64,000 bases of DNA from Saccharopolyspora endophytica. Lineage in GTDB: Bacteria; Actinomycetota; Actinomycetes; Mycobacteriales; Pseudonocardiaceae. The DNA is taken from contig NZ_JAGPXE010000011.1 of NCBI RefSeq assembly GCF_018070075.1, positions 124,001 through 188,000 on the forward strand. Direction: 5' to 3'. Of this stretch, positions 17,015 through 52,687 are shown in pieces. How positions within the stretch are numbered: the first letter of the stretch is position 1; every line of letters starts with the position of its first letter. Under the pieces are notes generated by a model. It was not told where the DNA came from. It made no database searches and was given only the letters and a program-made list of their open reading frames with translations. Made by a program: the position numbers and the translations under genes.

Positions 17015-17016
17015 CA

Positions 17017-35863: not shown

Positions 35864-35921
35864 AACCCCCTTTCGTTCGGCGGATTTCCGCGTCGCGGGT
35901 CCGCGTGCCCCAGGAGGACGG

Positions 35922-37073: not shown

Positions 37074-38575
37074 CCGAGAACACCGATCTGCTGGTGATGT
37101 CCGGGATCGTCAAGGTGTTCCCCGGTGTGCGCGCGCTCGACGGCGTCGACCTGCGCGTTCGCTCAGGCGAGGTGCACTGCCTGCTCGGGCAGAACGGCGC
37201 CGGCAAGTCCACCTTGATCAAGGTGCTCTCCGGAGCGCATCACCCCGACGGCGGCTCGATCGAGTGGCGTGGTGAGTCCGTCGCGCTCGGCTCACCGGCC
37301 GCGGCGCTGCGGCGCGGAATCGCCGCGATGTACCAGGAACTCGACCTCGTGCCCGGCCTGAGCGTGGCGGAGAACATCTTCCTCGGTCATGAACCCGCCA
37401 CCGCGGGCTTCACGCAGCGCGGCAAGACCCGGCGCGCCGCGGCGGAGCTGATGGCGAGGTTGGGGCATCCGGAGATCGACCCCGACGAACCCGTCGGCGA
37501 GCTCTCCGCGGCCGCGCGACAGCTGGTGTCGATGGCCCGCGCGCTGGGGCACCAGGCGAAGCTGATCATCATGGACGAGCCGACCGCAGCGCTGTCCGCG
37601 GGAGAGGTCGACAACCTGTTCCGGATCATGGGGGAACTGACCGCCGACGGTGTCGCCGTCGTCTACATCTCCCACCGCATGGACGAGATCCGGCGCATCG
37701 CGGACCGGATCACCGTGCTGAAGGACGGACGCACGGTCTCCGCTGCTCTGCCGGTCGCCGAGACCTCGACCCGCGAGCTGGTGACGCTGATGACGGGAGG
37801 AGAACCTCCCGAGGTGGCGGCCGAAGGCAGCACCGCGACCGATCGGCCGGTGCTGGAAGTGCGGGGGTTGCGGCGGCGCGGTGAGTTCGACGAGATGAGC
37901 TTCACCGCGCACGCGGGTGAGATCGTCGGGTTGGCCGGGCTGGTCGGCTGTGGTCGCAGCGAAGTCCTGGAGACGATCTTCGGAGCCCGCGTGCCCGACT
38001 CCGGTGACGTGCAGGTGGACGGCCGCTCGGTTCGCACCGGCAGCATCAGCGCAGCGGTGTCCGCCGGTATCGGTCTGACCCCGGAAGAGCGCAAGAGCCA
38101 AGCGCTGCTCCCCCAGATGGCGCTGGCCGCGAACGTGACGCTGGCGTCGTTGGCCCGGCACAGCAGGTGGGGGTTCACCCGGTGGGGCGCCGAGCACGCC
38201 GGTACCACCGAGGTGGCCACCCGGCTCCAGCTCCACCCGGCCGAGCCCACCCGTCTCATCGCCACGTTCTCCGGCGGCAACCAGCAGAAGGCCGTGATCG
38301 GACGTTGGGTCCTGCGCGGGTGCCGCGTTCTCCTGCTCGACGAACCCACCCGAGGCGTTGACGTCGGCGCGAGGGCGGAGATCTACGCGCTCATCCGGCA
38401 ACTCGCCGCCGACGGGCTGGCGATCGTGGTCGTCTCCAGCGACATCCCGGAGGTGCTGGCGCTGGCCGACCGGGTGCTCGTGCTGCGCGACGGCGCCGTG
38501 GTGCACACCGCCGCGGCAAGTGACATCACCGAGTCCCGCGTGCTCGACCTGGTCATGGAGGCACCGTCGAGATGA
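37070..38575 (+). CDS. Sugar ABC transporter ATPase (RbsA type)
   Basis: A 501-residue double ATPase. The N-terminal half has Walker A GQNGAGKSTLIK, signature LSAAARQ and Walker B LIIMDEPTAAL. The C-terminal half has the degenerate Walker A GLVGCGRSEVLE typical of this subfamily, signature FSGGNQQKAVIGRWVL and LLLDEPTRGVDVG. This twin layout belongs to ribose/xylose/inositol-type importers. It is coupled at both ends by ATGA overlaps with the dehydrogenase and permease genes. It energises uptake of the sugar bound by the lipoprotein at 39608. Confidence 0.94.
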   Translation: MTENTDLLVMSGIVKVFPGVRALDGVDLRVRSGEVHCLLGQNGAGKSTLIKVLSGAHHPDGGSIEWRGESVALGSPAAALRRGIAAMYQELDLVPGLSVAENIFLGHEPATAGFTQRGKTRRAAAELMARLGHPEIDPDEPVGELSAAARQLVSMARALGHQAKLIIMDEPTAALSAGEVDNLFRIMGELTADGVAVVYISHRMDEIRRIADRITVLKDGRTVSAALPVAETSTRELVTLMTGGEPPEVAAEGSTATDRPVLEVRGLRRRGEFDEMSFTAHAGEIVGLAGLVGCGRSEVLETIFGARVPDSGDVQVDGRSVRTGSISAAVSAGIGLTPEERKSQALLPQMALAANVTLASLARHSRWGFTRWGAEHAGTTEVATRLQLHPAEPTRLIATFSGGNQQKAVIGRWVLRGCRVLLLDEPTRGVDVGARAEIYALIRQLAADGLAIVVVSSDIPEVLALADRVLVLRDGAVVHTAAASDITESRVLDLVMEAPSR

Positions 38576-39573
38576 GCGAACGCACCCTCACCGCACCGAC
38601 CACGACCGCGGCGTCCAAGCTCGGCCGTTGGTGGTCGCGCGCAGACATCCGCTTGACCGCGCTGTTCCTCGTGCTCATCGCGCTGTGCGTGGTCGGCTAC
38701 GCGACCAGGCCGGACGCCTTCCTCACGGAAGGCAACATCTCCACCGTCCTGCGACTGGCCGCCGCGATCGGCGTGGTCAGCGTGGGCATGACCTTCGTCA
38801 TCTCGGCAGGCGGCATCGACCTGTCGGTCGGTTCGATCGTGGCTCTGTCCAGCGTGTGGATGACGACGTGGGCGACCCAGTCCTTCGGCGCGGGCGTGAT
38901 GGTCCTGTGCGCGTTGCTGGTGGGCGCCGGCTGCGGCCTGGTGAACGGGCTGCTGATCGCCTACGGGCGGGTGGTGCCGTTCATCGCCACGCTGGCGATG
39001 ATGGCCACTGCGCGCGGCCTGGCCGAACGCATCAGCGGACGGCAGACCCAGGTCGTCGACGCCCCCGGTTTCGGGGCGCTGTTCAAGGGACACCTGCTGG
39101 GCGTGCCGGTGCTGGTCTGGATCTTCGCGATCGTGTTCGTCGCGGGCTGGATCCTGCTCAACCGCACCACGTTCGGCCGTCGCACGCTCGCCGTCGGCGG
39201 CAACGCCGAGGCGGCCAGGCTGGCCGGGATCAACGTCCGCAGGCACACCGCCCTGGTGTTCGCGCTCGCCGGTCTGTGCTGCGGCATCGCCGCGCTCATG
39301 GTGGTGGCCCGAACGACCTCCGGTGCCTCGACCAACGGTCTGTTCTACGAGCTCGACGCGATCGCTGCCGTGGTCATCGGCGGCACCCTGCTCTCCGGCG
39401 GGCGCGGCAGCATGGGCGGGACCCTCCTGGGCGTGCTCATCTTCACCACGCTCAGCAACGTCTTCACCCTCAACAACCTGGAAACAGACATCCAGAACAT
39501 CGCCAAGGGCGCGATCATCGTGCTCGCCGTGCTGGTCCAAACGCGATCTCGGCGCCGATCCGGCACCCCCTGA
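38572..39573 (+). CDS. Sugar ABC transporter permease (RbsC type)
   Basis: A 333-residue membrane protein with 8 to 10 hydrophobic segments and the RbsC-family pattern: VSVGMTFVISAGGIDLSVGS in the N-terminal half, GLVNGLLIAYGRVVPFIATL, and the C-terminal YELDAIAAVVIGGTLLSGGR followed by GSMGGTLLGVLI. It forms the channel of the importer as a homodimer. ATG 38572 overlaps the ATPase stop by four bases; the binding protein follows after 34 bp. Confidence 0.93.
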   Translation: MSERTLTAPTTTAASKLGRWWSRADIRLTALFLVLIALCVVGYATRPDAFLTEGNISTVLRLAAAIGVVSVGMTFVISAGGIDLSVGSIVALSSVWMTTWATQSFGAGVMVLCALLVGAGCGLVNGLLIAYGRVVPFIATLAMMATARGLAERISGRQTQVVDAPGFGALFKGHLLGVPVLVWIFAIVFVAGWILLNRTTFGRRTLAVGGNAEAARLAGINVRRHTALVFALAGLCCGIAALMVVARTTSGASTNGLFYELDAIAAVVIGGTLLSGGRGSMGGTLLGVLIFTTLSNVFTLNNLETDIQNIAKGAIIVLAVLVQTRSRRRSGTP

Positions 39574-39607
39574 CAAGCCCATCCCACCTCAGTGTCGAGG
39601 AGGAACC

Positions 39608-40660
39608 ATGTCCGTTCCCGAAACGTCCCGCCGAAGACTCCTGTTCGGTTCATCCGCCATCGGCGCGTCCGCAGTGCTGACCGGATGCCTGGCCAACACC
39701 CCACCGCAGCAGGAGAACCAGGCCGCCGTCGCCGCGGGCGGTGACAACGCCGCCCCCGGAAAGCACGTGACGATCGGGTTCTCGGCGCCGGCCGCCGATC
39801 ACGGCTGGATGGCGGCGATGACCACCTACGCCCGCGCTCAGGCCGAGAAGCTGCCGGACGTCACCTTCCGCCCCACCGAGGGCGGCTCTGACGTCAGCCA
39901 GCAGATCGCCCAGGTCGAGACGCTGATCAACGCCAAGGTCGACGTGCTCGTGGTCCTGCCCGCCGACGGCAAGGCGATGACCGACGTGGCCCTGCGCGCC
40001 ACGCGCGCGGGGATCCCTGTGGTCAACGTGGACCGCGTCTTCGACTCGCCGGACGCCTACCGGGTGTGGATCGGTGGCGACAACTACGGCATGGGTGTCA
40101 ACGCCGCCGACTACATCGCCGCCGAGCTGCGAAAGGCCAACGTTGCCAACCCGGTCATCGCCGAGATCGCGGGCACCGATTCGCTACCGCTCACCCAGGA
40201 GCGCAGCGCGGGCTTCCGCGATGGGCTGGCCCGGCACGGCTTGGAGGTCACGCGCCGGGTGGCCGCCGAGTTCACCGCCGAGACCGGTGAACGACAGGCC
40301 ACCAACCTGCTGCAGGCGGCCTCGCACCTGGACGCCGTGTGGAACCACGACGACGACCAGGGCATCGGGGTGGTGTCGGCGGTCGAGTCCGCCGGCCGCG
40401 ACGAGTTCTTCATGGTCGGCGGCGCGGGATCGCGGCAGATGATGGACCGGATCAAAGCGGGAAACGGCGTGATGCGCGCCACCGTGCTCTACAGCCCCTC
40501 GATGTGCTCCTCGGCGATCTCGCTGGCGCGGCTGCTCGCGCAAGCGCGCGGTGTGTCCGACCTCGCCGAGCACGAGGTGCCGCGTTCGGTGACGACCTAT
40601 TCGGCCGTGGTGACCCGGGACAACGTCGACCAGTACCGCGACATCGGGTTCGCCTCCTGA
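39608..40660 (+). CDS. Sugar ABC substrate-binding lipoprotein (RbsB type)
   Basis: A 350-residue periplasmic-binding-protein type I lipoprotein. The N terminus ETSRRRLLFGSSAIGASAVL ends in TGC: a twin-arginine start combined with a lipobox, so it may be Tat-exported and lipid-anchored. The body (VTIGFSAPAADHGWMAAMTT, VLVVLPADGKAMTDVALRA, GIPVVNVDRVF, WNHDDDQGIGVVSAVESAG) is RbsB-like. ATG 39608 follows GAGGAACC. Such proteins bind monosaccharides, inositols or small glycosides; the ligand is not deducible. Confidence 0.92.
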   Translation: MSVPETSRRRLLFGSSAIGASAVLTGCLANTPPQQENQAAVAAGGDNAAPGKHVTIGFSAPAADHGWMAAMTTYARAQAEKLPDVTFRPTEGGSDVSQQIAQVETLINAKVDVLVVLPADGKAMTDVALRATRAGIPVVNVDRVFDSPDAYRVWIGGDNYGMGVNAADYIAAELRKANVANPVIAEIAGTDSLPLTQERSAGFRDGLARHGLEVTRRVAAEFTAETGERQATNLLQAASHLDAVWNHDDDQGIGVVSAVESAGRDEFFMVGGAGSRQMMDRIKAGNGVMRATVLYSPSMCSSAISLARLLAQARGVSDLAEHEVPRSVTTYSAVVTRDNVDQYRDIGFAS

Positions 40661-40677
40661 ATCGAGAGGAGTTCGAC

Positions 40678-41436
40678 ATGCGAACCACCGCACGCGCCCT
40701 TCTGGGAATCCTCCTGGCCGGCGCGATGGCCACCCCCGCCTGGGCTGCAGCACCGGAACCCGACGACCCGCCCAGCGTGCTGGTGTTCTCCGAGACCGCC
40801 GGTTATCGCCACGCCTCCATCGAGTCGGGGATCGCCTCGATCCGGAAATTGGGTCGGAAGAACGGGTTCCGCGTCGAGTCCACCGAGGACTCCGCGCGGT
40901 TCACCGACCGGGAACTGGCCCGCTACGACGCCGTCGTGTGGTTGTCCACCACCGGTGACGTGCTCGATCAGCCGCAGCAGGACGCCTTCGAGCGCTACAT
41001 CCGCTCCGGCGGCGGCTACGTCGGCGTGCACGCCGCCGCCGACACCGAGTACGACTGGCCGTTCTACGGTGAGCTCGTCGGCGCGTACTTCGCCGGCCAC
41101 CCGCACATCCAGCCCGCCACGGTGCGCGTCGAGGACCACCGCAACGATTCCACCGCGCACCTGCCGAACCGCTGGGATCGCACCGACGAGTGGTACAACT
41201 ACCGCGCCAACCCGCGTCCCGACGTGCACGTCCTGGCCGCGCTGGACGAGCGCACCTACGATCCCGGCGACACCGCCATGGGCGGAGACCACCCCATCGC
41301 CTGGTGCCACGAGGTGGACGCCGGTCGCGCCTTCTACACCGGTGGTGGCCACACCCACGAGTCGTACTCCGAACCCGCTTTCGTGCGCCACGTCCTCGGC
41401 GGCATCCGCGTCGCCCTCGACCGAGCGCCGTGCTGA
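40678..41436 (+). CDS. Secreted ThuA-domain protein
   Basis: A 252-residue ThuA domain behind a Sec signal (MRTTARALLGILLAGAMATP then AWAA). Core pieces are VLVFSETAGYRHASIESGI, YDAVVWLSTTGDVLD, FERYIRSGGGYVGVHAAADT and GGHTHESYSEPAFVRHVLGG. ThuA proteins have a glutamine-amidotransferase-like fold and in rhizobia are needed for disaccharide use via 3-keto sugars. Here it is exported, unlike classical ThuA, as is common in actinobacterial and planctomycete clusters. It lies 17 bp after the binding protein gene and follows GAGAGGAG. It probably acts on a keto-glycoside outside the membrane. Confidence 0.88.
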   Translation: MRTTARALLGILLAGAMATPAWAAAPEPDDPPSVLVFSETAGYRHASIESGIASIRKLGRKNGFRVESTEDSARFTDRELARYDAVVWLSTTGDVLDQPQQDAFERYIRSGGGYVGVHAAADTEYDWPFYGELVGAYFAGHPHIQPATVRVEDHRNDSTAHLPNRWDRTDEWYNYRANPRPDVHVLAALDERTYDPGDTAMGGDHPIAWCHEVDAGRAFYTGGGHTHESYSEPAFVRHVLGGIRVALDRAPC

Positions 41437-41463
41437 GAATCATCGACGACGAGGAGTGAGCAG

Positions 41464-42474
41464 ATGGGACGTTCGGTCACGCTCTTCACCGGGCAATGGG
41501 CGGACTTGCCGTTCGAGGAAGTGGCCCGACTCGCCTCGGAGTGGGGCTACGACGGCCTGGAGATCGCCTGCTGGGGTGATCACCTCGACGTCTGGCGCGC
41601 CGTGGCGGACGAGGACTACCTCCAGTCGCGCGTGGACGTCCTCGACCGGTACGGACTCGGCGTGTGGGCGATCTCCAACCACCTCACGGGGCAGGCGGTC
41701 TGCGATGACCCGATCGACGTCCGCCACCGCGCCATCCTGTCCGACCGGGTGTGGGGCGACGGCGATCCCGAAGGCGTGCGGCAGCGGGCCGCCGAGGAGA
41801 TGAAGCACACCGCGCGGGTCGCTGCCAAGCTCGGCGTGCGCACGGTCGTCGGCTTCACCGGATCGGCGATCTGGAAGTACGTCGCGATGTTCCCGCCGGT
41901 GCCCGCCGAGCTGGTCGAGGCCGGCTACCAGGACTTCGCCGACCGGTGGAATCCGATCATGGACGTCTTCGACGCCGAAGGCGTGCGGTTCGCCCTCGAA
42001 GTGCACCCCTCGGAGATCGCCTACGACTACTGGTCGACCGTGCGCACCCTCGAAGCCCTCGGGCACCGGGAGGGCTTCGGCCTAAACTGGGACCCGAGCC
42101 ACATGATCTGGCAGGACGTCGACCCGGTGGGCTTCCTCGTCGACTTCGCCGACCGGATCTTCCACGTCGACTGCAAGGACACCAAGCGCAACCTCGGCAA
42201 CGGCCGCAACGGCAGGCTGGGATCGCACCTGCCCTGGGCCGACCCCCGACGCGGCTGGGACTTCGTGTCCACCGGACGCGGTGACGTGCCATGGGAGGCG
42301 TGCTTCCGCGTGCTCAACTCGATCGGCTACGAGGGCCCCATCTCCATCGAGTGGGAGGACGCGGGCATGGACCGCCTGCGCGGCGCACCGGAAGCGCTGA
42401 GCTTCGTGCGCGATCAGCTCTTCGACCCACCGGACGCGGCATTCGACGCGGCCTTCAGTTCTCCGCAGCAGTAG
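41464..42474 (+). CDS. Sugar phosphate isomerase/epimerase family TIM barrel (cytoplasmic)
   Basis: A 336-residue xylose-isomerase-like TIM barrel. It starts [20 protein letters not shown], with metal-ligand candidates in [14 protein letters not shown] (Glu, His), [15 protein letters not shown] (Asp, His), [12 protein letters not shown] (His, Asp) and the final [12 protein letters not shown] (Glu). No signal peptide. In related clusters these enzymes act on 3-keto sugars or inosose intermediates. It lies 27 bp after ThuA and 19 bp before a second TIM-barrel gene, clearly one operon. The exact step is unknown. Confidence 0.88.
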
Positions 42475-42493
42475 AACGAAGGAGTGCAAGACG

Positions 42494-43444
42494 ATGTGTT
42501 TCGGTTTCAACGGTGAAGCAGCGTTAGCCCAGTCCCTGGGTGCCACACGATTGACCCGGCGCGGCGCGCTGCGCACCGCCGGCGCGCTCGGCGCCGGCCT
42601 GCTCGCAGCGGGCACGGCCACCCCGGCAGCCCAGGCGACACCACGACCGGTCGGCGCGCCGCTGGTGCCGCCTGGACAGATCAGCATCCAGCTGTGGACC
42701 ATGCGCGCAGCGCTCCAGGGTGACCCCGGTTTCGACGAGTCCTTGCGCGCCCTCGCCCGAACGGGCTACCCCAAGGTCGAGCAGGCGCTCGGCTACTTCG
42801 GCCGCACCGCCGCCGAATTGCGGGCCTTCTACGACAGCATCGGCATCTCGGCGACGTCGAGCCACGACGGGATCTCCGACAGCGAGAAGTCGCTGCAGAC
42901 CAAGATCGACAACGCCCGCACCCTCGGCCAGTCGTTCCTCGTCGTGCCGTACCTGGACTCGCCCCACCGGGACGACTGGAAGCGGTGGGCCGAGCAGATG
43001 AACCACGAAGCCGAGGTCGCCAGGGCGGCCGGGCTGCGCTACGGCTACCACAACCACGCCCACGAGTTCACCACCGATCTGGGCGGCGCGACGCCGTGGC
43101 AGGTGCTGACCTCCGAACTGGACCCGGCGCTGGTGCACCTCGAACTCGACCTGTACTGGGCCGTGCGCGGTGGCATCGAAAGCGGCCGAGGGGCAGGAGA
43201 TCCCGAAGGTTTCGCCATCGACGTCATCCGGTCCGCTCCGCAACCGGTGCTGCAGTACCACGTCAAGGACCGCCACCCGGAGGACGGCGACATGGCCGAC
43301 CTCGGCACCGGGCACATCGACTTCGCCCGGATCTTCCGGGCGCACGCGGTGCTGGAGTACATCGTGGAGAACGACACTCCCGACGTCACCCCGCAGCAGA
43401 CCGCCGAGGTCGGCTACCGCTACCTGCGCGCGCTGAGCATCTGA
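42494..43444 (+). CDS. Tat-exported sugar phosphate isomerase/epimerase family protein
   Basis: A 316-residue TIM barrel with an unusual N terminus: MCFGFNGEAALAQSLG, then a twin-arginine stretch TRRGALRTAGALGAGLLAAG that ends in AQA, so it should be exported folded. The barrel has ISIQLWTMRAALQ, YGYHNHAHEF, VHLELDLYWAVRGG, YHVKDRHPEDGDMADLGTGH and a final IVENDTP. Metal ligands (Glu, His, Asp) fit the family. A metal-dependent enzyme exported by Tat together with a secreted ThuA and a PQQ-type dehydrogenase points to an extracellular sugar step. ATG 42494 follows AAGGAG. Confidence 0.85.
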   Translation: MCFGFNGEAALAQSLGATRLTRRGALRTAGALGAGLLAAGTATPAAQATPRPVGAPLVPPGQISIQLWTMRAALQGDPGFDESLRALARTGYPKVEQALGYFGRTAAELRAFYDSIGISATSSHDGISDSEKSLQTKIDNARTLGQSFLVVPYLDSPHRDDWKRWAEQMNHEAEVARAAGLRYGYHNHAHEFTTDLGGATPWQVLTSELDPALVHLELDLYWAVRGGIESGRGAGDPEGFAIDVIRSAPQPVLQYHVKDRHPEDGDMADLGTGHIDFARIFRAHAVLEYIVENDTPDVTPQQTAEVGYRYLRALSI

Positions 43445-43561: not shown

Positions 43562-45664
43562 ATGCGACGTGTCCCCTTACTGGCGGCGGTGGCCGCAGTG
43601 ACCACCGCCTTGATGAGCGCACCGGCGGTGGCCGCCGAAGGCCCACCGCCGGACGAGGAATTCCAGAAGGTCGTGCTCAACGACCACCCCGGCGAACCGA
43701 TCGACCTCGCCGTCCTCCCCGACGGCAGGGTCCTGCACACCACCCGCCAGGGCGAGGTCCGGATGCACCACCCGGACACCGGCCGCAACACCGTCGCGGC
43801 CACGGTGGACGTCTACCAGCACGACGAGGAAGGCCTGCAGAGCGTCGCGGTGGATCCCGGCTTCAACGGCACCACGAACCGGTGGGTCTACCTGTACTAC
43901 TCGCCACCGTTGAACACGCCGACCGACGATCCGTCCACACCGGACATCAACGAGGGCGATGCGCCGGAGTCGGGCACGCCCGAGCAGTTCGCGCCCTTCA
44001 AGGGCGCCCTGCAGCTGTCGCGCTTCCAGCTCAACGGCGACCAGCTCGACCTGTCCACCGAGCAGAAGATCCTCGACGTCGGCGTGGACCGGGGCCTGTG
44101 CTGCCACGTCGGCGGAGACATCGTCTTCGACGGCGACGGCAACCTCTACCTGTCCACCGGTGACGACACCAACCCGTTCGCCTCCGGCGGCTACGCGCCG
44201 ATCGACGAGCGGGCGGGACGCAACCCCGCCTTCGACGCGCAGCGCTCGTCGGCCAACACCAACGACCTGCGGGGCAAGGTGCTGCGGATCAAGGTGGAGG
44301 AGAACGGCTCCTACACCATCCCGGACGGGAACCTGTTCGCACCCGGCACACCGAGCACGCGTCCGGAGATCTACCTGATGGGCTTGCGGAACCCGTTCCG
44401 CATCGAGGTCAACCGGACGACCAACGAGCTCTACGTGGCCGACTACTCGCCCGACGCCGATCACGCCGATCCGGACCGCGGCCCTGCCGGCACCGGTAAG
44501 TGGTTCGCCGCCCGCGAGGCGGGCAACTACGGCTGGCCCTACTGCGCGACCGCCGAACTCCCCTACGTCGACTACGACTTCGCCACCGGCACGTCCGGCG
44601 CGCCGTTCGACTGCGCCGCCCCGGTGAACGAGTCGCCGAACAACACCGGGCTCACGCGACTACCACCGGTCGAGCAGCCGCAGGTGTGGTACGGCTACGG
44701 CCAGTCCGAGCAGTTCCCGGAGCTGGGAGCCGGTGGCATCGGCCCGATGGCCGGCCCCGTCTACCACTACGACGACGGTCGAGGCCGCGCGCCGATCGCC
44801 TGGCCGCAGCACTACGACGGCATGCCGCTGTTCTACGAGTGGACCCGCGACTACATGAAGGGCTTCCGCCTGGACGACTCGGGAGCGCTCACCGGCATCG
44901 AGGACGTGCTTCCCTCGATCCCGCTGTCCGGCCCGATCGACATGGAGTTCGGCCCCGACGGGGCGCTGTACGTGCTCGACTACGGCAAGGGCTACTTCGG
45001 CGAGAACCCCGAGGCGGCGCTGTCGCGGATCGACTACATCGGACCCGGCGGCAACCACAGCCCCGAAGCCAAGGCCTCGGCCAGCGCGACCAACGGACAA
45101 GCGCCCCTGACGGTGTCGTTCTCCAGCGAGGGCACCGGCGACGCCGACGGCGACCGCTTGATCTACGAGTGGGACTTCGACTCCAACGGCACGGTCGACT
45201 CGCGGGAACCGAACCCGACGCACACCTACACCGACAACGGCGTCTACACCGCGATGCTGCGGGTGACCGACACCGGCGGGCCGAACACCGGCAAGACCGG
45301 CCTGGCCGAGGTCAACGTCGTGGTCGGCAACGTCGCGCCGACGGTCCGGTTCGTCACGCCGGTCGACGGGCAGCAGTTCTCCTTCGGCGACGTCATCAAC
45401 TACGAGGTGGCGGTGACCGACGATCAGCCCGTCGACTGCTCGAAGGTCGAAGTGACCTACATCCTCGGGCACGACGATCACGGACACCCGCAGACGACCG
45501 CCTCCGGTTGCTCCGGGTCGATCCAGACCACGGTGCCCGAAGGCCACGACCCCGCGACCGACAACCTGCGCGGGGTGTTCCAGGCGACCTACACCGACCC
45601 GGGCGTCGACGGGCTGCCGTCGCTGACCGGTGAGCACGAGGTCGTGCTGCAGCCGACGAGCTGA
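43562..45664 (+). CDS. Secreted PQQ-type sugar dehydrogenase with PKD domain
   Basis: A 700-residue secreted protein. After a Sec signal (MRRVPLLAAVAAVTTALMSA), residues about 35-495 form a soluble-glucose-dehydrogenase-like six-bladed propeller (EGLQSVAVDPGFNGT, HVGGDIVFDGDGNLYLSTGD, GLRNPFRIEVN, GPIDMEFGPDGALYVLDYG). Residues about 505-590 are a PKD domain (EWDFDSNGTVDSREPNPTHT YTDNG split over the boundary), and a beta-rich tail follows. PQQ or copper is the expected cofactor class for oxidising sugars outside the cell. It lies 117 bp after the exported epimerase and is closed by the terminator at 45675. It probably makes the keto-sugar used by its neighbours. Confidence 0.87.
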   Translation: MRRVPLLAAVAAVTTALMSAPAVAAEGPPPDEEFQKVVLNDHPGEPIDLAVLPDGRVLHTTRQGEVRMHHPDTGRNTVAATVDVYQHDEEGLQSVAVDPGFNGTTNRWVYLYYSPPLNTPTDDPSTPDINEGDAPESGTPEQFAPFKGALQLSRFQLNGDQLDLSTEQKILDVGVDRGLCCHVGGDIVFDGDGNLYLSTGDDTNPFASGGYAPIDERAGRNPAFDAQRSSANTNDLRGKVLRIKVEENGSYTIPDGNLFAPGTPSTRPEIYLMGLRNPFRIEVNRTTNELYVADYSPDADHADPDRGPAGTGKWFAAREAGNYGWPYCATAELPYVDYDFATGTSGAPFDCAAPVNESPNNTGLTRLPPVEQPQVWYGYGQSEQFPELGAGGIGPMAGPVYHYDDGRGRAPIAWPQHYDGMPLFYEWTRDYMKGFRLDDSGALTGIEDVLPSIPLSGPIDMEFGPDGALYVLDYGKGYFGENPEAALSRIDYIGPGGNHSPEAKASASATNGQAPLTVSFSSEGTGDADGDRLIYEWDFDSNGTVDSREPNPTHTYTDNGVYTAMLRVTDTGGPNTGKTGLAEVNVVVGNVAPTVRFVTPVDGQQFSFGDVINYEVAVTDDQPVDCSKVEVTYILGHDDHGHPQTTASGCSGSIQTTVPEGHDPATDNLRGVFQATYTDPGVDGLPSLTGEHEVVLQPTS

Positions 45665-45749: not shown

Positions 45750-46910
45750 ATGGCACCTAGGACCGGACTGTGGTTCATCGGCGCTCGCGGCTCGGTGGCG
45801 ACAACGGCCACCGTGGGCGCGCTCGCCATGACAACGGGGTTGGCCCCGCGCACAGGTTGCGTCGCTGACCTCCCCGAGGTGGCGGTGGCGGCACCGCCGG
45901 GCGTGGACGATCTTCTCATCGGCGGCCACGACGTCGTCGGCGACGCGCTGCCCAAGCGCGCCGAGGCTCTCGCCGCCGGAGGGGTTTTCGGTCACGAGCT
46001 GGCCCGGGCGGTGCACAGCGGGCTGGTGGAGGTCGACGCGCGGATCCGCCCGGGCATCACCTCGAACGGAGACTTCCAGCGCGACGCGATCGAGCAGGTC
46101 AGCCGCGATGTGGCCGGTTTCCGCGCCGCGCACGGGCTCGACCGGGTGATCGTGATCGACGTGTCCACCACCGAACCCCCGCTGGAGCTCACGCCGGAGC
46201 ACCGCGATCTGGACGCACTGGATCGAGCGCTGGCCGCGGGCGAGTCGCCGCTGCCTGCCAGCGGGGTCTACGCCTACGCGGCACTGCGCGCCGGATGCCC
46301 GTTCGTCGCGTTCACCCCGAGCCCCGGGCCGCGATTGCCCGCGATCGACCAGCTCGCGCGGCGCACGCAGCTCCCGTGGGCCGGCACCGACGGCAAGACC
46401 GGCGAGACGCTGATCAAATCGGCGCTGGCGCCGATGTTCGCCACCCGCGCGCTGCGGGTCCGCTCCTGGGCGTCGTACAACCTGCTCGGTGGTGGGGACG
46501 GTCAGTCCCTCGCCGACCCGGTCACAGCGGAGAGCAAGACCCGCTCCAAGAACAAGGGATTGGGGTCCATTCTCGGGCATCCGGTCGACGGGCCGATGCA
46601 CATCGACTACCTCCCCGACCTCGGCGACTGGAAGACGGCCTGGGATCTCGTGTCCTTCGACGGATTCCTCGGGACCAAGATGTCGATGCAGTTCACCTGG
46701 CAGGGGTGCGATTCGGCGCTCGCGGCCCCGTTGGTGCTCGACTTGGCCAGGCTGATGGCGCGGGCTCACCGAGCGGGCGCCGTCGGCGCCGTCGAGGCGC
46801 TCGGCTTCTTCTTCAAAGATCCCGCCGGGGACACCCCGCACGACCTGGCCGGTCAATGGCGCGCGCTGCTCGACTGGTGCGGCCAGATCGGCTCCGCGGA
46901 GCAGCGATGA
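45750..46910 (+). CDS. Inositol-3-phosphate synthase family protein (ebo-associated)
   Basis: A 386-residue protein of the myo-inositol-1-phosphate synthase family. The NAD-binding start is LWFIGARGSVATTATVGALA, and the catalytic domain contains PWAGTDGKTGETLIKSALAP, SWASYNLLGGGDGQSL, TRSKNKGLGSILGHPVDGP and FTWQGCDSALAAPLVLDLA with conserved lysines. The family turns glucose-6-phosphate into inositol-3-phosphate with NAD. It resembles the Streptomyces SCO3243-type branch, which accompanies a UbiA-like gene, more than the housekeeping Ino1. It leads seven tightly coupled genes and takes the place where ebo clusters usually have the sugar phosphate cyclase EboD. ATG 45750 follows GAGGGAGG. Confidence 0.87.
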   Translation: MAPRTGLWFIGARGSVATTATVGALAMTTGLAPRTGCVADLPEVAVAAPPGVDDLLIGGHDVVGDALPKRAEALAAGGVFGHELARAVHSGLVEVDARIRPGITSNGDFQRDAIEQVSRDVAGFRAAHGLDRVIVIDVSTTEPPLELTPEHRDLDALDRALAAGESPLPASGVYAYAALRAGCPFVAFTPSPGPRLPAIDQLARRTQLPWAGTDGKTGETLIKSALAPMFATRALRVRSWASYNLLGGGDGQSLADPVTAESKTRSKNKGLGSILGHPVDGPMHIDYLPDLGDWKTAWDLVSFDGFLGTKMSMQFTWQGCDSALAAPLVLDLARLMARAHRAGAVGAVEALGFFFKDPAGDTPHDLAGQWRALLDWCGQIGSAEQR

Positions 46911-47761
46911 GGGCCCGGGATCTCGCCGAGCTGGTTCGCTTGCCCGCCGTGCTCACCGCTCCCGGCGACAGCCTCGTCGGGGCCGCGGCGGCCGGCTGGC
47001 CTCACGGCAGGCGCAGCTGGGCCATGCCGGTGACCTCCTGCTGCTTCTACCTCGCCGGCATGGCGCTCAACGACTACGCCGACCGGGAACTGGACGCGCG
47101 GGAACGTCCCGAACGACCGATCCCGTCCGGCCGGGTCCGGCCCGGCACCGCTCTGGCCCTGGCCACCGGACTGACCGCAGCCGGTTTGGGGATCGCCGGG
47201 GCCGCAGGCGGCCGCAACGCTCTGCGGGCCGCCGTGCCGGTGGCCGCCGCGGCCTGGGCCTACGACCTCGCGGCCAAGCAGACCCACGCCGGGCCGGTGG
47301 TCATGGCACTGGCACGCGGGTTCGACGTCCTGCTCGGCTCCGGAGGGCACCGTCGAGCCGCCCTCCCCGCCTGCGCAGTCGCCGCGCACACCCTCGGGGT
47401 CACCTGGCTGAGCCGCGGAGAGGTCCACGGCGGTTCACCACGAGCGGGCTGGGCGGCGCTGGCGACCACCTCCGCCGCCGCGGCATCGACCGCGCTGCTA
47501 CCCGGCTCTTCGCGCCGCGCGAACGCAGCCGGCTTCGCGTGCGCTGCCGGATACGCCGTGACGGTCGGTGGGGCTCAGGCCCGAGCCGCGCGTCACCCGG
47601 ATGCGGACACCGTCCGCGCCGCGACAGGCGTCGGGGTGCGTGGCGTCATCGGACTGCAAGCGGCGCTGGTGGCCGGCACCGGTGCGCTCGGCGTCGCCGG
47701 CGCACTGCTCAGCGCCGGTCCGCTGGCTCGGTTGGCGTCGAAGGCGGTGTCGCCGACATGA
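46907..47761 (+). CDS. eboC: UbiA-like prenyltransferase EboC (SCO3242 family)
   Basis: A 284-residue integral membrane protein with about eight hydrophobic segments. The first Asp-rich motif NDYADRELDARERPERPIPS is intact, and YDLAAKQTHAGPVVMALARG plus FDVLLG takes the place of the second. UbiA enzymes move a polyprenyl group onto an acceptor in the membrane. EboC is the UbiA member of ebo clusters, and this subtype is named after Streptomyces SCO3242. ATG 46907 overlaps the upstream stop by four bases, as does its own stop with the next gene. The acceptor might be the cyclitol made by the upstream enzyme. Confidence 0.87.
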   Translation: MRARDLAELVRLPAVLTAPGDSLVGAAAAGWPHGRRSWAMPVTSCCFYLAGMALNDYADRELDARERPERPIPSGRVRPGTALALATGLTAAGLGIAGAAGGRNALRAAVPVAAAAWAYDLAAKQTHAGPVVMALARGFDVLLGSGGHRRAALPACAVAAHTLGVTWLSRGEVHGGSPRAGWAALATTSAAAASTALLPGSSRRANAAGFACAAGYAVTVGGAQARAARHPDADTVRAATGVGVRGVIGLQAALVAGTGALGVAGALLSAGPLARLASKAVSPT

Positions 47762-48624
47762 GCCTGCGGTTCGGCTACGGCACCAACGGATTCGCAGGAC
47801 ACCGCTTCGAAGACATCGTGACCGTTCTGGCGGATCTCGGTTACCACGGGGTCGCGCTCACCCTCGACCAACCACATCTGGACCCGTTCGCACCCGATCT
47901 CGCCAGGCGCACCGACGCCGTCCGCCGTCGGCTCGAGTCCCGAGGACTGGCCGTCGTGGTCGAAACCGGTGCCCGCTACGTCATGAACCCCTGGCACAAG
48001 CACGAACCGACGCTGGTCTCCGACACCGACCGGGAAAGGCGCATCGAGTACCTCCGACGCGCGGTCCGGATCGCCGAAGAGCTGGGCGCGGAGGCGGTGT
48101 CGTTCTGGTCCGGCACGCTGCCCGAGGGGGTGTCCGCGCAGCAGGGATGGGACCGGCTCACCAGCGGAGTCACCGACGTGCTGGACGAGGCGGAACGACG
48201 CGACGTGCGGTGCGCGTTCGAACCCGAACCAGGCATGTTCGTGGACACGCTCGCCGGTGTCGCGGAACTGCGCCGCATGCTCGGCCATCCGTCCCACCTC
48301 GCCGTGACAGTCGACATCGGGCACTGCGTGTGCAACGAACCGGCACCGCCGCAGGACTGCGTGCACCAAGTGGGCCACCTCCTCGGCAACGTCCAAGCCG
48401 ATGACATGCGCCCCGGCGTGCACGAGCACCTGGAGTTCGGAGACGGCGACGTCGACCTCCCGGCCACGCTCGGCGCGCTCCTCGACGTCGACTACCACGG
48501 ACTGGTCAGCGTCGAACTCCCCCGCCACTCCCACGCCGCGCCCGCAGTTGCCGCGCGCTCGCTCGAAGCGCTGCGCGTCGCGGCCGAGCGAGCGCGCACG
48601 ACCGCGACGGAGGCGAACCGATGA
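47758..48624 (+). CDS. Sugar phosphate isomerase/epimerase family TIM barrel (ebo-associated)
   Basis: A 288-residue xylose-isomerase-like TIM barrel without signal peptide: LRFGYGTNGFAGHRFEDIVT, LGAEAVSFWSGTLPEG, RCAFEPEPGMFVDTL, LAVTVDIGHCVCNEPA, NVQADDMRPGVHEHLEFGDG and a final LVSVELPRHSHAAP hold the Glu, Asp and His metal ligands. It is the extra member of this ebo operon; it differs from EboE, which is encoded four genes on. A link with the inositol-phosphate synthase product (for example inosose or keto-inositol isomerisation) is plausible but not shown. Four-base overlaps link it on both sides. Confidence 0.85.
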   Translation: MSLRFGYGTNGFAGHRFEDIVTVLADLGYHGVALTLDQPHLDPFAPDLARRTDAVRRRLESRGLAVVVETGARYVMNPWHKHEPTLVSDTDRERRIEYLRRAVRIAEELGAEAVSFWSGTLPEGVSAQQGWDRLTSGVTDVLDEAERRDVRCAFEPEPGMFVDTLAGVAELRRMLGHPSHLAVTVDIGHCVCNEPAPPQDCVHQVGHLLGNVQADDMRPGVHEHLEFGDGDVDLPATLGALLDVDYHGLVSVELPRHSHAAPAVAARSLEALRVAAERARTTATEANR

Positions 48625-49268
48625 GTTCAGCGCGGGACGTGCTCGGCCCGACCGCCCGAACGCGGTTGGCCGAACTGATCGACGAGGTCACGACGAATCC
48701 GACCCGGCTCGCCGTGCTGTTCCCCGCCGCTGCCAGGACGATCGCCCGCGGGCCGGTCGACCCGGCCGATCCCGACGGACTGATCACACCTCGCATCGAG
48801 GACGAGGTCCGAATCGGCTTGCTGCGGGCTGCCGAGCGACGCTTCGACCGCTCCGAGCTCGCGGTGGAGATCACCGCGCTGTACCGGCACGGCGACGCCG
48901 AGGAGAAGCGCGCGGTGCTGCGCGCGCTCGACAACCTCGATCTCGGCGACGCGTTGCTGCCACTGGTCCACGACGCGTTGCGCAGCAACGACTCCCGTCT
49001 GATCGCCGCAGCACTGGGCACGTACGCGGCTCGGTACCTCGACGACCACGCCTGGCGCCACGGTGTCCTCAAGTGCGTGTTCACCGGCGTGCCGCTGGAC
49101 GCGGTCGTCGGCGTCGCCGAGCGGGCCGATGCCGAGCTGTCCCGCATGGTGCATGCCTACATCGCCGAACGACTCGCTGCCGGACGACCCGTACCGCAGG
49201 ACGCGCACCGCCTGCTGCAACTGGACAGCGAGGACGCACCAGCAGGCGACCAAGCCGAGGAGGAATGA
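48621..49268 (+). CDS. eboA: EboA domain protein
   Basis: A 215-residue, mostly helical protein with HEAT-like pairs, such as VEITALYRHGDAEEKRAVLR followed by ALDNLDLGDALLPLVHDALR and RLIAAALGTYAARYLDDHAW. The core HGVLKCVFTGVPLDAVVGVA with its single Cys is the conserved end of EboA proteins. The function is unknown; in cyanobacteria ebo genes are needed to move a scytonemin precursor to the periplasm. No signal peptide or membrane segment is visible. It overlaps the upstream gene by four bases and shares one base with the TatD-like gene. Confidence 0.85.
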   Translation: MSSARDVLGPTARTRLAELIDEVTTNPTRLAVLFPAAARTIARGPVDPADPDGLITPRIEDEVRIGLLRAAERRFDRSELAVEITALYRHGDAEEKRAVLRALDNLDLGDALLPLVHDALRSNDSRLIAAALGTYAARYLDDHAWRHGVLKCVFTGVPLDAVVGVAERADAELSRMVHAYIAERLAAGRPVPQDAHRLLQLDSEDAPAGDQAEEE

Positions 49269-50128
49269 TGCGCATCTTCGATCCGCACATCCACATGAGT
49301 TCGCGCACCACCGACGACTACGAAGCCATGTACGCCGCGGGCGTTCGCGCGGTCACCGAACCGGCGTTCTGGGGCGGTCAACCCCGAACCAGCGCGGCGT
49401 CGTTCTACGACTACTTCGACACCCTGGTGGGTTGGGAGCGATTCCGAGCGGCGCAGTTCGGCATCCGCCACCACTGCACGATCGCGCTCAACCCGAAGGA
49501 GGCCAACGATCCGCGCTGCCGCGAGGTGCTCGACGCGCTTCCCCGCTACCTCGCCAAGGACGGCGTGGTCGCCGTCGGTGAGGTCGGGTTCGACTCGATG
49601 ACCTCGGACGAGGAGAAGGTCTTCGCCCGACAGCTCGAACTGGCGGCCGAGCACGAGCTGCCGGTGCTGGTGCACACCCCGCATCGCGACAAGGCGGAAG
49701 GAACCCGCCGAAGCCTCGATCTGGTCGCCGCCTCCGGCATCCCACCCGACCGGGTGCTCATCGACCACCTCAACGAAGTCACCATCGACCTCGTGGCCGA
49801 AACCGGATGCTGGATGGGGTTCTCCATCTACCCCGACACCAAGATGGACGAACACCGCATGGTGCGGATCTTCGCCGAGCACGGCCTTGACCGGATGATC
49901 GTCAACTCCGCGGCGGACTGGGGACGCAGCGACCCGCTCAAGACGGCCACGACCGGCCGAGCCATGCTCGACGCCGAGTTCACCGAGGACGACGTCGACC
50001 GCGTCCTGTGGCGCAACCCGGTCGAGTTCTACGCCCAGAGCGGCCGGTTGCTGCTCGACCCGGTCGAGACGGACCAGACGGCGACCTTCGAGGGCAACTC
50101 GGTGCTGCGCGGCCAACGACCGAAGTGA
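49268..50128 (+). CDS. eboB: TatD family metal-dependent hydrolase EboB
   Basis: A 286-residue TatD/amidohydrolase-fold protein. The HxH metal motif is FDPHIHM (H7, H9); further ligands lie in VGEVGFDSM (Glu), LVHTPH (His), LIDHLNEVT (His) and SAADWGRSDP (Asp). EboB is the TatD-like member of ebo clusters. Its substrate is unknown, and DNase activity should not be assumed. ATG 49268 has AGGAGG four bases upstream and shares one base with the eboA stop; ATG 49265 is three bases earlier. A 19-bp gap leads to eboE, the only real gap inside the cluster. Confidence 0.87.
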   Translation: MRIFDPHIHMSSRTTDDYEAMYAAGVRAVTEPAFWGGQPRTSAASFYDYFDTLVGWERFRAAQFGIRHHCTIALNPKEANDPRCREVLDALPRYLAKDGVVAVGEVGFDSMTSDEEKVFARQLELAAEHELPVLVHTPHRDKAEGTRRSLDLVAASGIPPDRVLIDHLNEVTIDLVAETGCWMGFSIYPDTKMDEHRMVRIFAEHGLDRMIVNSAADWGRSDPLKTATTGRAMLDAEFTEDDVDRVLWRNPVEFYAQSGRLLLDPVETDQTATFEGNSVLRGQRPK

Positions 50129-50147
50129 GCCACGAGGAGACTCAGAC

Positions 50148-51314
50148 ATGCGCTTCACCCACCGCGACGGCACCCGGATCCACCTCGCCTACTGCACCAA
50201 CGTTCACCCCGCCGAGGACCTGGAAGGGTTGCTGCGCCAACTGCGCGTCTTCGGGGGTGGCATCCGCGCCGAACTCGGCGTCGAGCAGCTCGGCGTCGGG
50301 CTCTGGCTTCCCGCACCGCTGGCCGCGCACCTGGTCGACCACCCCGATCTCAACCGGCTGCGGGAGGCACTGGCGGGTCACGGTCTCGAAGTCGTCACCC
50401 TCAACGCATTCCCGTACCAGGGTTTTCACGAAGCAGTGGTCAAACGAGCCGTCTACCAACCGAACTGGACTGATGAGCGCCGACTCGCCTACACGCTCAA
50501 CTGCGCACGCGTGCTGGCACGGCTGCTGCCCGCCGATGTCGCTTCCGGCAGCATCTCCACGCTGCCAGTCGCGTGGCGGGAACCGTGGTCGTCGCAGCAA
50601 CGACGGCACGCCATCAACTCGATGCACCGACTCAGCGAGGGGCTCGCCGAGCTGGCCGACGAAACCGGCAAGCACATCCGCGTCGGGCTGGAACCGGAAC
50701 CGGGGTGCGTCGTCGAAACCACCGACGAAGCGATCGAGCTGCTCGGCGATGTGGACACCGACCACATAGGACTGTGCTTGGACGCCTGCCACCTCGCGGT
50801 GGGGTTCGAGGACGCCGCCGCCTCGGTGCGCCGCCTCACCGAGGCCGCGATCCCGATCGTGAAAACTCAGGCCTCCGCGGCGTTGCACGCCTCCTCCCCC
50901 TCCGATGAGGCAACCCGGAACGCTCTGTCGTGCTATGCCGAAGACCGCTTCCTGCACCAGATCCGCGAACGCGGAACCTCCGGCATCACCGCGCTCGACG
51001 ACCTGCCGGAGGCGCTGCACGGCGATCACTCCCTGCGCGGCGACGGGCCGTGGCGAGTCCACTTCCACGTGCCGATCCACCGCCAACCCGAGCCGCCCCT
51101 GACCTCCACCCAACAGGAGCTCGACCACACCCTGCGCGCCCTGCTCGGCGGGCGCACCGCACTCACCGACCACGTCGAGATGGAGACCTACACCTGGTCG
51201 GTGCTGCCAGAACGCCAGCGACCGCGCGACAATGCCGAGCTGACGGCCGGCCTGGCAGCCGAACTGCGCTGGGTCGCCCAGGCGTTGCGACGCGCCGGAT
51301 TGGAACCATCGTGA
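50148..51314 (+). CDS. eboE: EboE metabolite traffic protein (TIM barrel)
   Basis: A 388-residue protein of the EboE family, a xylose-isomerase-like TIM barrel: GTRIHLAYCTNVHPAEDLEG at the start, VVTLNAFPYQGFHEAVVKRA, VYQPNWTDERRLAYT, VGLEPEPGCVVETTDEAIEL, IGLCLDACHLAVGFED and a final DHVEMETYTWSVLP. Glu, Asp and His ligands for a metal are kept. Database names call it a metabolite traffic protein because of the scytonemin export phenotype; the reaction is unknown. The GTG of eboF overlaps its stop by four bases. ATG 50148 follows GAGGAGACTC. Confidence 0.9.
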   Translation: MRFTHRDGTRIHLAYCTNVHPAEDLEGLLRQLRVFGGGIRAELGVEQLGVGLWLPAPLAAHLVDHPDLNRLREALAGHGLEVVTLNAFPYQGFHEAVVKRAVYQPNWTDERRLAYTLNCARVLARLLPADVASGSISTLPVAWREPWSSQQRRHAINSMHRLSEGLAELADETGKHIRVGLEPEPGCVVETTDEAIELLGDVDTDHIGLCLDACHLAVGFEDAAASVRRLTEAAIPIVKTQASAALHASSPSDEATRNALSCYAEDRFLHQIRERGTSGITALDDLPEALHGDHSLRGDGPWRVHFHVPIHRQPEPPLTSTQQELDHTLRALLGGRTALTDHVEMETYTWSVLPERQRPRDNAELTAGLAAELRWVAQALRRAGLEPS

Positions 51315-52687
51315 ACAAGATCCTGCTCCTCGACGTGGTGGGACTGACACCGCGCCTGCTCCAGCACGCCCCTCGGCTGCGCGCGCTCGCAGAGCAGGGC
51401 TGGCAGGCACCTCTGGAGACCGTGCTGCCCGCGGTCACGTGCTCCGTGCAGTCCACCATGCTCACCGGACTGCCCCCGCGCGAGCACGGCGCCGTCGGCA
51501 ACGGCTGGTACTTCCGCGATCTCGGCGAGGTCCACCTGTGGCGCCAGCACAACCGGCTCGTCACCGGCGAGAAGGTGTGGGAGACGGCCCGGCGCGCCCG
51601 CCCCGACTTCCGCGCAGCCAACGTGTGCTGGTGGTACGCGATGGGCGCCAGCACCGACTGGACCATCACCCCGAGGCCCGTCTACCACGCCGACGGCCGC
51701 AAGTCCCCGGACTGCTACACCTGGCCACCGGAACTGCACGACGAGCTGACCCAGGCGCTAGGCGCTTTCCCCCTGTTCCACTACTGGGGCCCGACCGCGT
51801 CGCTGCGCTCCACCGAGTGGATTGTCAAGGCCTCCCGACAGCTGCTTCCCGAAGCCGATCTCACCCTGGCCTACGTCCCGCACCTCGACTACGACCTGCA
51901 ACGACACGGACCCGACAGCACCCAGGCGATCGCGGCCGTGCGCGATGTCGACCGAGCCGTGACACCACTGCTCGAGGACGCGCAGGCGCAGGGCGCAACG
52001 GTCGTCGTCGTGAGCGAATACGGCATCACCCACGCCGCACACCCCGTCGACATCAACCGCGCGCTCCGCGAATCGAGCCTGCTGGAGGTCTACACCCAGC
52101 ACGGCATGGAATACCTGGACCCGTGGACGTCGCGCGCTTTCGCGGTCGCCGACCACCAGGTCGCGCACGTCTACGTCCAGAACCCGGCCGATCTGCCGCC
52201 CGTGCGCGAGCTCTGCCAAGACCTGCCCGGAGTCGACCTGGTGCTCGACAGGGCCGCGCAACACGACTTCGGCGTAGACCACCCCCGCGCCGGCGAACTT
52301 GTCCTCGTCGCCGAACCGCGCGCCTGGTTCACCTACTACTACTGGCTGGACGACGCGCGGGCCCCGGACTTCGCGCGCGGCGTCGACATCCACCGCAAAC
52401 CCGGTTACGACCCGGCCGAGCTGTTTCTGGACCCGTCCGATCGGACCGTGAAGCTGCGCGCCGCGCTCGGCCTGGCCCGCAAGAAGCTCGGCCTCCGCTA
52501 CGCCATGAACGTCGTCCCGACCAGCGGACGCTGGGTCAAGGGCACGCACGGCCGACTACCCGACGACCCGCTCGACGGCCCGGTCCTGCTGTGCAGCGAC
52601 CCGTCCTCCCAACGCGACCGCATGAGCGCGGCCTCGGTTCGCGATCTCATCCTGGACCTGGCAGAGGTCCCGCAGTCGACGAGATGA
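51311..52687 (+). CDS. eboF: Alkaline phosphatase/phosphodiesterase superfamily protein EboF
   Basis: A 458-residue nucleotide pyrophosphatase/phosphodiesterase-like protein. LLLDVVGLTPRLLQ begins the metal site, TVLPAVTCSVQSTMLTGLPP holds the nucleophile threonine position, and YVPHLDYDLQRHGPDS, VVSEYGIT and VDIHRKPGYDPAELFLDPSD supply Asp and His ligands. The family cleaves phosphodiesters or phosphonate bonds using two metal ions. There is no signal peptide, so it should act in the cytoplasm. GTG 51311 is coupled to eboE, and it is the last gene of the cluster. It may remove or transfer the phosphate of a prenyl-linked intermediate. Confidence 0.88.
   Translation: MNKILLLDVVGLTPRLLQHAPRLRALAEQGWQAPLETVLPAVTCSVQSTMLTGLPPREHGAVGNGWYFRDLGEVHLWRQHNRLVTGEKVWETARRARPDFRAANVCWWYAMGASTDWTITPRPVYHADGRKSPDCYTWPPELHDELTQALGAFPLFHYWGPTASLRSTEWIVKASRQLLPEADLTLAYVPHLDYDLQRHGPDSTQAIAAVRDVDRAVTPLLEDAQAQGATVVVVSEYGITHAAHPVDINRALRESSLLEVYTQHGMEYLDPWTSRAFAVADHQVAHVYVQNPADLPPVRELCQDLPGVDLVLDRAAQHDFGVDHPRAGELVLVAEPRAWFTYYYWLDDARAPDFARGVDIHRKPGYDPAELFLDPSDRTVKLRAALGLARKKLGLRYAMNVVPTSGRWVKGTHGRLPDDPLDGPVLLCSDPSSQRDRMSAASVRDLILDLAEVPQSTR

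Follow-up and report, generated by a model that had tools for sequence, protein, structure and literature searches.

What forms the ring in an ebo cluster that has no EboD? The question is raised by a 64,000-nucleotide stretch of the genome of Saccharopolyspora endophytica (contig NZ_JAGPXE010000011.1, positions 124,001 to 188,000; this whole stretch is called the window below), in which a run of seven genes combines most of the ebo set with an enzyme resembling inositol-3-phosphate synthase (MIPS). The ebo cluster (eboA-F) has been described from eustigmatophyte plastids, Bacteroidota, Cyanobacteria and others (PMC5133447, PMC6282210). Yurchenko et al. (2016) proposed an isoprenoid-cyclitol as its product, placed EboD in the sedoheptulose 7-phosphate-using part of its superfamily and noticed actinobacterial EboA-isomerase fusions (PMC5133447). 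In Nostoc, ebo deletions keep the scytonemin monomer in the cytoplasm, and the periplasmic enzyme ScyE is tied to ebo (Klicki et al. 2018; PMC6282210). As detailed below, the exchange of EboD for MIPS is systematic. The locus represents a real and widespread variant of ebo, not a new kind of system, and one that is apparently undescribed in the open-licence PubMed Central (PMC) literature searched: no description of MIPS in an ebo cluster, or of an archaeal ebo cluster, was found there (subscription papers and preprints were not covered), and the accessible text of PMC5133447, PMC6282210 and PMC6092422 contains no occurrence of the word "inositol".

A MIPS-like enzyme in the place of EboD

The operon spans positions 45750–52687 of the window, and its seven co-directional genes, called from open reading frames (ORFs) with Pfam and NCBIfam profiles, all lie on the + strand. 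The MIPS-like enzyme comes first, in the place of EboD (45750–46910; PF07994, 157 bits; PF01658, 109 bits). It is followed by an EboC-like UbiA-superfamily prenyltransferase of the SCO3242 family (46907–47761; NF045897, 348 bits, cut-off 260), a xylose-isomerase-like TIM-barrel epimerase that we designate TIM3, the partner of MIPS (47758–48624; PF01261, 137.6), EboA (48621–49268; EboA domain NF035938, 167.5 bits, cut-off 50), the TatD-like metal-dependent hydrolase EboB (49268–50128; PF01026, 52 bits, cut-off 27), EboE (50148–51314; NF035939, 436 bits, cut-off 250) and EboF, a member of the type I phosphodiesterase/nucleotide pyrophosphatase family (51311–52687; PF01663, 222 bits, cut-off 23). 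The identities of EboA and EboE given in the initial annotation stand, both proteins exceeding curated cut-offs; EboA falls below the narrower model NF035937 (63 bits, cut-off 320). The same annotation had counted seven genes, six of them joined by overlaps: the seven are confirmed and five of the six junctions do overlap, by 4, 4, 4, 1 and 4 bp, whereas EboB and EboE are 19 bp apart. For EboB the libraries gave no ebo-specific model; the protein is homologous to the EboB of EboD-type clusters and 42% identical to that of one of them (L029), to whose EboF the window's EboF is 51% identical. A scan for promoters and terminators gave matches no more frequent than in shuffles.

The operon shares with the known ebo cluster EboA, EboB, EboE, EboF and an EboC-like prenyltransferase; it differs in the absence of EboD, in the presence of MIPS and an extra TIM-barrel epimerase, and in its order, MIPS-C-TIM3-A-B-E-F against ABCDEF. 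An ebo-type cluster with MIPS instead of EboD is what the initial annotation had proposed, and this is borne out, with no EboD beside the window: the single gene of the 3-dehydroquinate (DHQ)-synthase family in the genome (PF01761) sits on another contig (C34), and the genome is therefore without EboD. Because the second MIPS-family gene of the genome is a canonical mycothiol Ino1 (TIGR03450, 693.5 bits, cut-off 638), a model that the operon enzyme matches at only 25.9 bits, the operon enzyme is an additional, divergent copy. Nor is the arrangement due to chance, since the identical seven genes recur in identical order in 59 of 80 named loci (the best 80 of 567 relatives in a scan of named genomes).

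The closest solved sequence to the operon enzyme is the myo-inositol-phosphate synthase of Archaeoglobus fulgidus (PDB 1u1i, 238 bits), and the likeness extends to the fold and the catalytic residues. The predicted model (mean predicted local distance difference test score, pLDDT, 91.1) has 3qvx and 1u1i as its nearest structures, with a TM of 0.90 to 1u1i in Foldseek and 36–37% identity in the structural match. Residues N244, K263, K267, K295, D321 and K356 are invariant in alignments of 14 and 15 rows, and align to A. fulgidus N255, K274, K278, K306, D332 and K367, respectively. Mutant structures exist for N255A, K278A and K367A of the A. fulgidus enzyme, and K274, K306 and D332 we take to have catalytic roles as well. 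Judged by these alignments, the catalytic residues of the operon enzyme are intact.

The two enzymes differ in their genomic setting, that of the window lying in an ebo operon, and in the loop NxLGxxDG, which reads GGGDG in the window and GDYDG in A. fulgidus. Every one of the 96 copies fetched for the actinobacterial clade has GG before DG, and GN[X]DG is found in 13 other actinobacterial MIPS (18 stretches were fetched for this comparison, of which 13 yielded a sequence and 5 none), in Gemmatirosa and in three haloarchaeal cluster copies. GGGDG was considered as a mark of ebo-associated MIPS and rejected: it is limited to the actinobacterial clade, while the Gemmatirosa and haloarchaeal cluster copies keep GN. 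Fructose 6-phosphate is the substrate of Ari2, another MIPS homologue. This enzyme (PDB 6k96), named a five-membered-cyclitol-phosphate synthase and used in the secondary metabolism of aristeromycin, matches the operon enzyme at only 46.6 bits, against 238 for the archaeal one.

Distribution of the MIPS-type operon

To what extent has MIPS replaced EboD? An even sample of 396 Actinomycetota genomes contained EboE in 19, of which 18 over the cut-off, and relatives of the window MIPS (at least 323 bits; next match 212 bits) in 17; in all 17 the MIPS gene lies a few kb from EboE, inside an ebo cluster. In this sample and in the family survey described below, scoring was limited to four or seven candidates per genome. 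The full seven-gene set is present in the window and in 15 of the 16 other MIPS loci, EboC being undetected in L028. The two EboE genomes without this MIPS are G381, which has an EboD-type cluster (a DHQ-synthase-like gene, EboB, EboE, EboC and EboF) with neither MIPS nor TIM3, and G279, which has a broken ebo cluster and no MIPS. One further genome (G128) carries a complete cluster plus a second, MIPS-less one (L026, 12701–15333), which adjoins a distant CrtO-like oxidoreductase.

Within the window's family in GTDB, EboE occurs in 117 of 249 genomes (114 over the cut-off), and every one of these 114 has this MIPS at 350 bits or more, in agreement with the substitution that had been suggested for actinomycetes. 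MIPS lies at most 8 kb from EboE at 109 of the 119 EboE places (these 109 pairs were not each checked for EboD); at the other ten, no EboD-like match was found in the stretch read. Six of these ten belong to one genus and keep EboC-TIM3-EboA-EboB-EboE-EboF (L167–L172), another three run into contig ends, and the last consists of EboE alone. The prenyltransferase exceeds its cut-off in 5 of the 22 genomes of the window's genus, and the cluster is therefore accessory.

Besides the 59 complete named loci, nine have MIPS alone (four Nocardioides, four Micromonospora and one at a contig end) and the remaining 12 are partial, several of them at contig ends. MIPS and EboD were found together in none of the 123 fetched loci (one contig appears as both L036 and L097 and enters each set once, and L118 is an unplaced "bacterium"), and queries with EboD and AroB match only ten EboD-type loci. 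This is the mutual exclusion, each enzyme accompanied by the other ebo genes, by which the initial annotation had proposed to judge the substitution. Reduced sets also occur: a lone EboE inside a type II polyketide cluster of a Streptomyces plasmid (L163, 10995–12173), another in a genome of the window's family (L175, about 9900), and EboB-EboE-EboF only, with no matches to MIPS, EboC, TIM3 or EboA in the stretch read, on two Streptomyces plasmids (L164 and L165).

Outside the Actinomycetota, 10 of 16 records were opened, the six unopened ones being further Ketogulonicigenium and Mycetohabitans. All nine annotated bacterial clusters opened (two Deinococcus, Ketogulonicigenium, two Salipiger, Azospirillum, Mycetohabitans, Aureibacter and Roseivivax) encode an EboD-type "3-dehydroquinate synthase", and no MIPS or TIM3 match was found in these nine. 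The gene order of Gemmatirosa kalamazoonensis (L153) is EboB-EboF-EboC-MIPS-TIM3, with a divergent EboE; its whole 1.04-Mb record holds no gene of the DHQ-synthase family (the chromosome was not searched). In a backbone tree of 39 of 98 loci (L029 counted as EboD-type), the window and 11 others, in which L153 carried an EboD-type label assigned before its MIPS was seen, the EboB, EboE and EboF of Gemmatirosa group with EboD-type clusters (support 100), and their joining the MIPS-type clusters is rejected (approximately unbiased test, p-AU 2.9e-5). Its EboC groups with that of the MIPS-type clusters (97/97), the alternative not being rejected (p-AU 0.065). As this backbone is of the EboD type and yet is accompanied by MIPS and TIM3, the module seems to have been received by an EboD-type operon, perhaps together with EboC.

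Haloarchaeal plasmids of Halobaculum, Natronococcus and Halocatena encode a TatD protein (241–262 bits to the window's EboB), two TIM barrels, a UbiA protein, MIPS and a phosphodiesterase (259–275 bits to the EboF of L029). The UbiA protein of Halobaculum scores 178 with the EboC model and 170 with the SCO3242 model, both below the cut-off. We term these three clusters ebo-like, because they gave no match to EboA or EboD and only weak ones to EboE (58–71 bits). In a tree of MIPS, which took 16 of the 97 copies of the actinobacterial clade, a branch with 100/100 support separates the cluster enzymes of actinobacteria, Gemmatirosa and haloarchaea from 16 other MIPS. That all cluster MIPS form one exact clade is rejected (AU test, p 2.8e-27), a trivial outcome, since MIPS copies without ebo genes nest inside.

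TIM3 travels with MIPS. TIM3 matched 36 plasmid records at E 1e-20 or better, and MIPS is present on 35 of them, the single remaining record being Haladaptatus; the haloarchaeal TIM3 matches are weak (27–31% identity). The predicted TIM3 structure (pLDDT 93.7) is nearest to UlaE and other ketose 3-epimerases, and also to YcjR, and residues E155, D186, H189 and E253 are invariant in the alignment; these are presumably the metal ligands, as in the rest of the family. The linkage of TIM3 with MIPS, the reach into Gemmatimonadota and Haloarchaea, and the upstream sugar-uptake and dehydrogenase block described in the next section are additions to the initial annotation.

Genes around the operon

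A gene for a glucose/sorbosone-dehydrogenase-like (GSDH) protein with a PKD domain (43562–45664, + strand; PF07995, PF18911) ends 85 bp upstream of the operon; the protein is apparently secreted, its signal-like N-terminus being judged by eye, and its BLAST group is found near 54 of the 80 named loci. Further upstream, positions 34679–43444 of the + strand encode, by Pfam and NCBIfam matches, a ROK regulator, a Gfo/Idh/MocA oxidoreductase, a sugar ABC transporter, ThuA and two TIM-barrel isomerases, the Gfo/Idh protein being levoglucosan-dehydrogenase-like (360 bits, below the cut-off of 650). Near 57 of the 80 named loci (23 of 31 genus labels) there are at least two of eight BLAST groups of this upstream block. 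Common as it is, the sugar block is not universal: two annotated Streptomyces plasmid clusters lack it and are found within or next to biosynthetic genes. In Sphaerisporangium corydalis (L098) a ThuA-GSDH-PKD protein of 1994 residues is encoded inside the operon, between EboB and EboE, and L093 has an ORF of 1939 residues in the same position (found as an ORF only). A protein of L028 carries a 3-keto-disaccharide-hydrolase domain.

In 11 of 17 genomes a GSDH gene is found no more than 10 kb from the cluster, against 0.35 expected (P 7e-16 under independence, a value weakened by shared ancestry, which violates that assumption). The neighbours of the haloarchaeal clusters include a PQQ (pyrroloquinoline quinone)-type sugar dehydrogenase, a TIM barrel and ABC genes in L157, and an isomerase, ABC genes and ThuA in L158; near the Gemmatirosa cluster there are a weak GSDH match (26.6 bits, cut-off 25), a TIM barrel and Gfo/Idh. 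A ScyE-family gene over the cut-off stands directly upstream in two loci only, L058 and L144, that of L102 being below it; ScyE as a general neighbour was rejected, no listed ScyE match lying within 10 kb of the cluster in 19 ebo genomes. PQQ, which would be the obvious cofactor for the neighbouring GSDH proteins, is not favoured, pqqC being present in 3 of these 19; the pqqC match in the window's own genome (contig C7, 190330–191031) has one in-frame TGA. In the four Nocardioides loci (L071, L082, L086 and L116), MIPS of the ebo clade lies directly downstream of a sugar isomerase and near ThuA/GSDH genes, all other ebo genes being absent (neighbour domains were checked for L071).

Proposed product and rival readings

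The gene content, the substitution of MIPS for EboD, the linkage of MIPS with TIM3, the preserved catalytic residues and the beta-propeller dehydrogenase neighbourhood are established. What might such an operon make? It is highly likely that MIPS also replaces EboD in function. We lean, with somewhat better than even confidence, towards a MIPS-type ebo variant in which MIPS and TIM3 provide a cyclitol head group; that this head group is of the inositol type is favoured to about the same modest degree, and service to an extracytoplasmic oxidoreductase is a more tentative proposal. The MIPS-like enzyme, with bound NAD+ and an intact active site, would convert a sugar phosphate, most likely glucose 6-phosphate, to an inositol phosphate, and TIM3, to judge from its fold and likely metal ligands, would epimerise or isomerise the cyclitol or its keto form. 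In the membrane, EboC would then add a prenyl chain, and the trimming and finishing of the molecule may fall to EboB, EboE and EboF. The initial annotation had likewise suggested an inositol-like head group, its transfer to a prenyl chain and the cutting of a phosphodiester, all of which would be predictions from gene content. The membrane-linked prenyl-cyclitol so formed could serve an extracytoplasmic oxidoreductase, ThuA/GSDH here and ScyE-type elsewhere, probably through transport of a metabolite to the other side of the membrane, in line with what the cyanobacterial knock-outs suggest.

A second cyclitol-forming enzyme in the place of EboD lends independent support to the cyclitol idea, and the addition of TIM3 where MIPS is used suggests that the product of MIPS needs an extra step. 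The Micromonospora loci (L104, L083, L112 and L123, about 4600–21100) have MIPS of the ebo clade without ebo genes; the proteins of L104, L112 and L123 include a DegT aminotransferase, AMP-ligases, a carrier protein, acyl-CoA dehydrogenases, an Inositol_P-family phosphatase and Gfo/Idh, likely an aminocyclitol-type pathway by its domain content. The company of this phosphatase, Gfo/Idh and an aminotransferase argues for a phosphorylated C6 cyclitol as the product of MIPS.

Several points weigh against the proposal that MIPS and TIM3 provide an inositol-type head group for a prenyl lipid. The activity of the enzyme and its product are deduced from sequence, and the GGGDG loop of all 96 copies of the actinobacterial clade means that their substrate may not be glucose 6-phosphate. 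The best NCBIfam match of the Micromonospora phosphatase is to histidinol-phosphatase, below all cut-offs. The window's EboC stays below the EboC model (NF035940, 135.7 bits, cut-off 250), and the sole tested relative, Ubi-297 (the EboC of Maribacter, likewise a UbiA-type prenyltransferase encoded in an ebo cluster), transfers farnesyl groups to quinoline acids in vitro; its 14 described acceptors are all aromatic, and the accessible text does not list cyclitols among those tested (PMC9235831). The same source reports ebo in Saccharomonospora with a gene set described as including EboD (PMC9235831), and a role of ebo in export is known from Nostoc only, for the scytonemin monomer (PMC6282210). 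Neither partner is confined to the other: MIPS occurs without ebo genes in the four Nocardioides and four Micromonospora loci and at extra places in the family sample, and ebo clusters occur without MIPS (L026, L043, L163–L165 and L175). In five of the loci L167–L172 about 26 kb of the same contig separate MIPS from the cluster, and in the sixth MIPS is on a different contig; the haloarchaeon Haladaptatus (L166) has the same gene set with no MIPS in the stretch read. The association with GSDH, finally, ignores shared ancestry, and 6 of the 17 genomes have no GSDH gene nearby.

One rival would have the MIPS-like enzyme join C7 to C2 of sedoheptulose 7-phosphate, giving the same kind of C7 cyclitol as is proposed for EboD, so that the two types would differ in enzyme family but not in final product. 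It can appeal to the position of EboD in the sedoheptulose 7-phosphate-using part of its superfamily (PMC5133447), to the naming of the homologue Ari2 as a five-membered-cyclitol-phosphate synthase, and to the change from GN to GG in the active-site loop, which could fit a larger substrate; yet the Gemmatirosa and haloarchaeal cluster enzymes keep GN, the Micromonospora set of phosphatase, Gfo/Idh and DegT is in keeping with a route to a C6 inositol, and TIM3, added alongside MIPS, points to a further step. We regard a C7 ring as rather unlikely. Much less probable still is that the MIPS gene has landed in the operon by chance and that its enzyme only makes the usual inositol for mycothiol or phosphatidylinositol: fold and catalytic residues are indeed those of a genuine MIPS, but the genome has its canonical Ino1 elsewhere, the gene stands first in the complete operon at 59 of 80 loci, all 114 family genomes with EboE over the cut-off also have it, and among the 123 fetched loci it was never found with EboD.

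The upstream genes bear on another alternative, in which a sugar-catabolism operon has taken up the ebo genes, whose products would work on keto-sugars without yielding a lipid for export. The ROK, ABC transporter, levoglucosan-dehydrogenase-like Gfo/Idh, ThuA and isomerase genes, the similar groups near 57 of 80 loci and the 3-keto-disaccharide-hydrolase domain of L028 would suit it, but it is hard to see what a membrane prenyltransferase would do in the breakdown of sugars, and that block is missing from the two annotated Streptomyces plasmid clusters, which have biosynthetic genes around or next to them; we consider this alternative unlikely. The proposal of a head group from MIPS and TIM3 can also be widened: across bacteria and haloarchaea, ebo might make a membrane-linked or exported cyclitol cofactor or carrier for extracytoplasmic beta-propeller oxidoreductases of the ScyE and GSDH types, with an exchangeable head-group module (EboC-MIPS-TIM3 or EboC-EboD) and scytonemin export as one instance. 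This generalisation appears improbable as a whole.

The replacement of EboD by MIPS and an epimerase hints at a building block of the ebo product, a puzzle since the operon was described in 2016. Were the head group derived from MIPS in entire lineages, the lipid would be traceable with labelled inositol or glucose in Streptomyces that are tractable in the laboratory, and for the poorly characterised EboC there would be a defined acceptor to assay. In Streptomyces coelicolor A3(2), SCO3242 and SCO3243 are tabulated as a putative transferase and a myo-inositol phosphate synthase. Experiments should then be able to swap the EboD- and MIPS-type modules, as nature seems to have done in Gemmatirosa, and the ebo system would extend from bacteria and plastids to Archaea and be linked to sugar dehydrogenases, not to a sunscreen pigment alone.

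MIPS and TIM3 also occur as a pair outside ebo clusters. The records with both include Methylobacterium, Roseomonas and Hymenobacter, and three such clusters that were opened (L159–L161) have no other ebo genes. In the two that are annotated, Roseomonas (L161, 8638–18825) and Hymenobacter (L159, 8797–17498), with no ebo genes annotated, MIPS and TIM3 are accompanied by YcaO, Gfo/Idh and PIG-L deacetylase genes, and in Roseomonas additionally by a GT4 glycosyltransferase, a combination reminiscent of the GlcN (glucosamine)-inositol thiol route plus a YcaO step.

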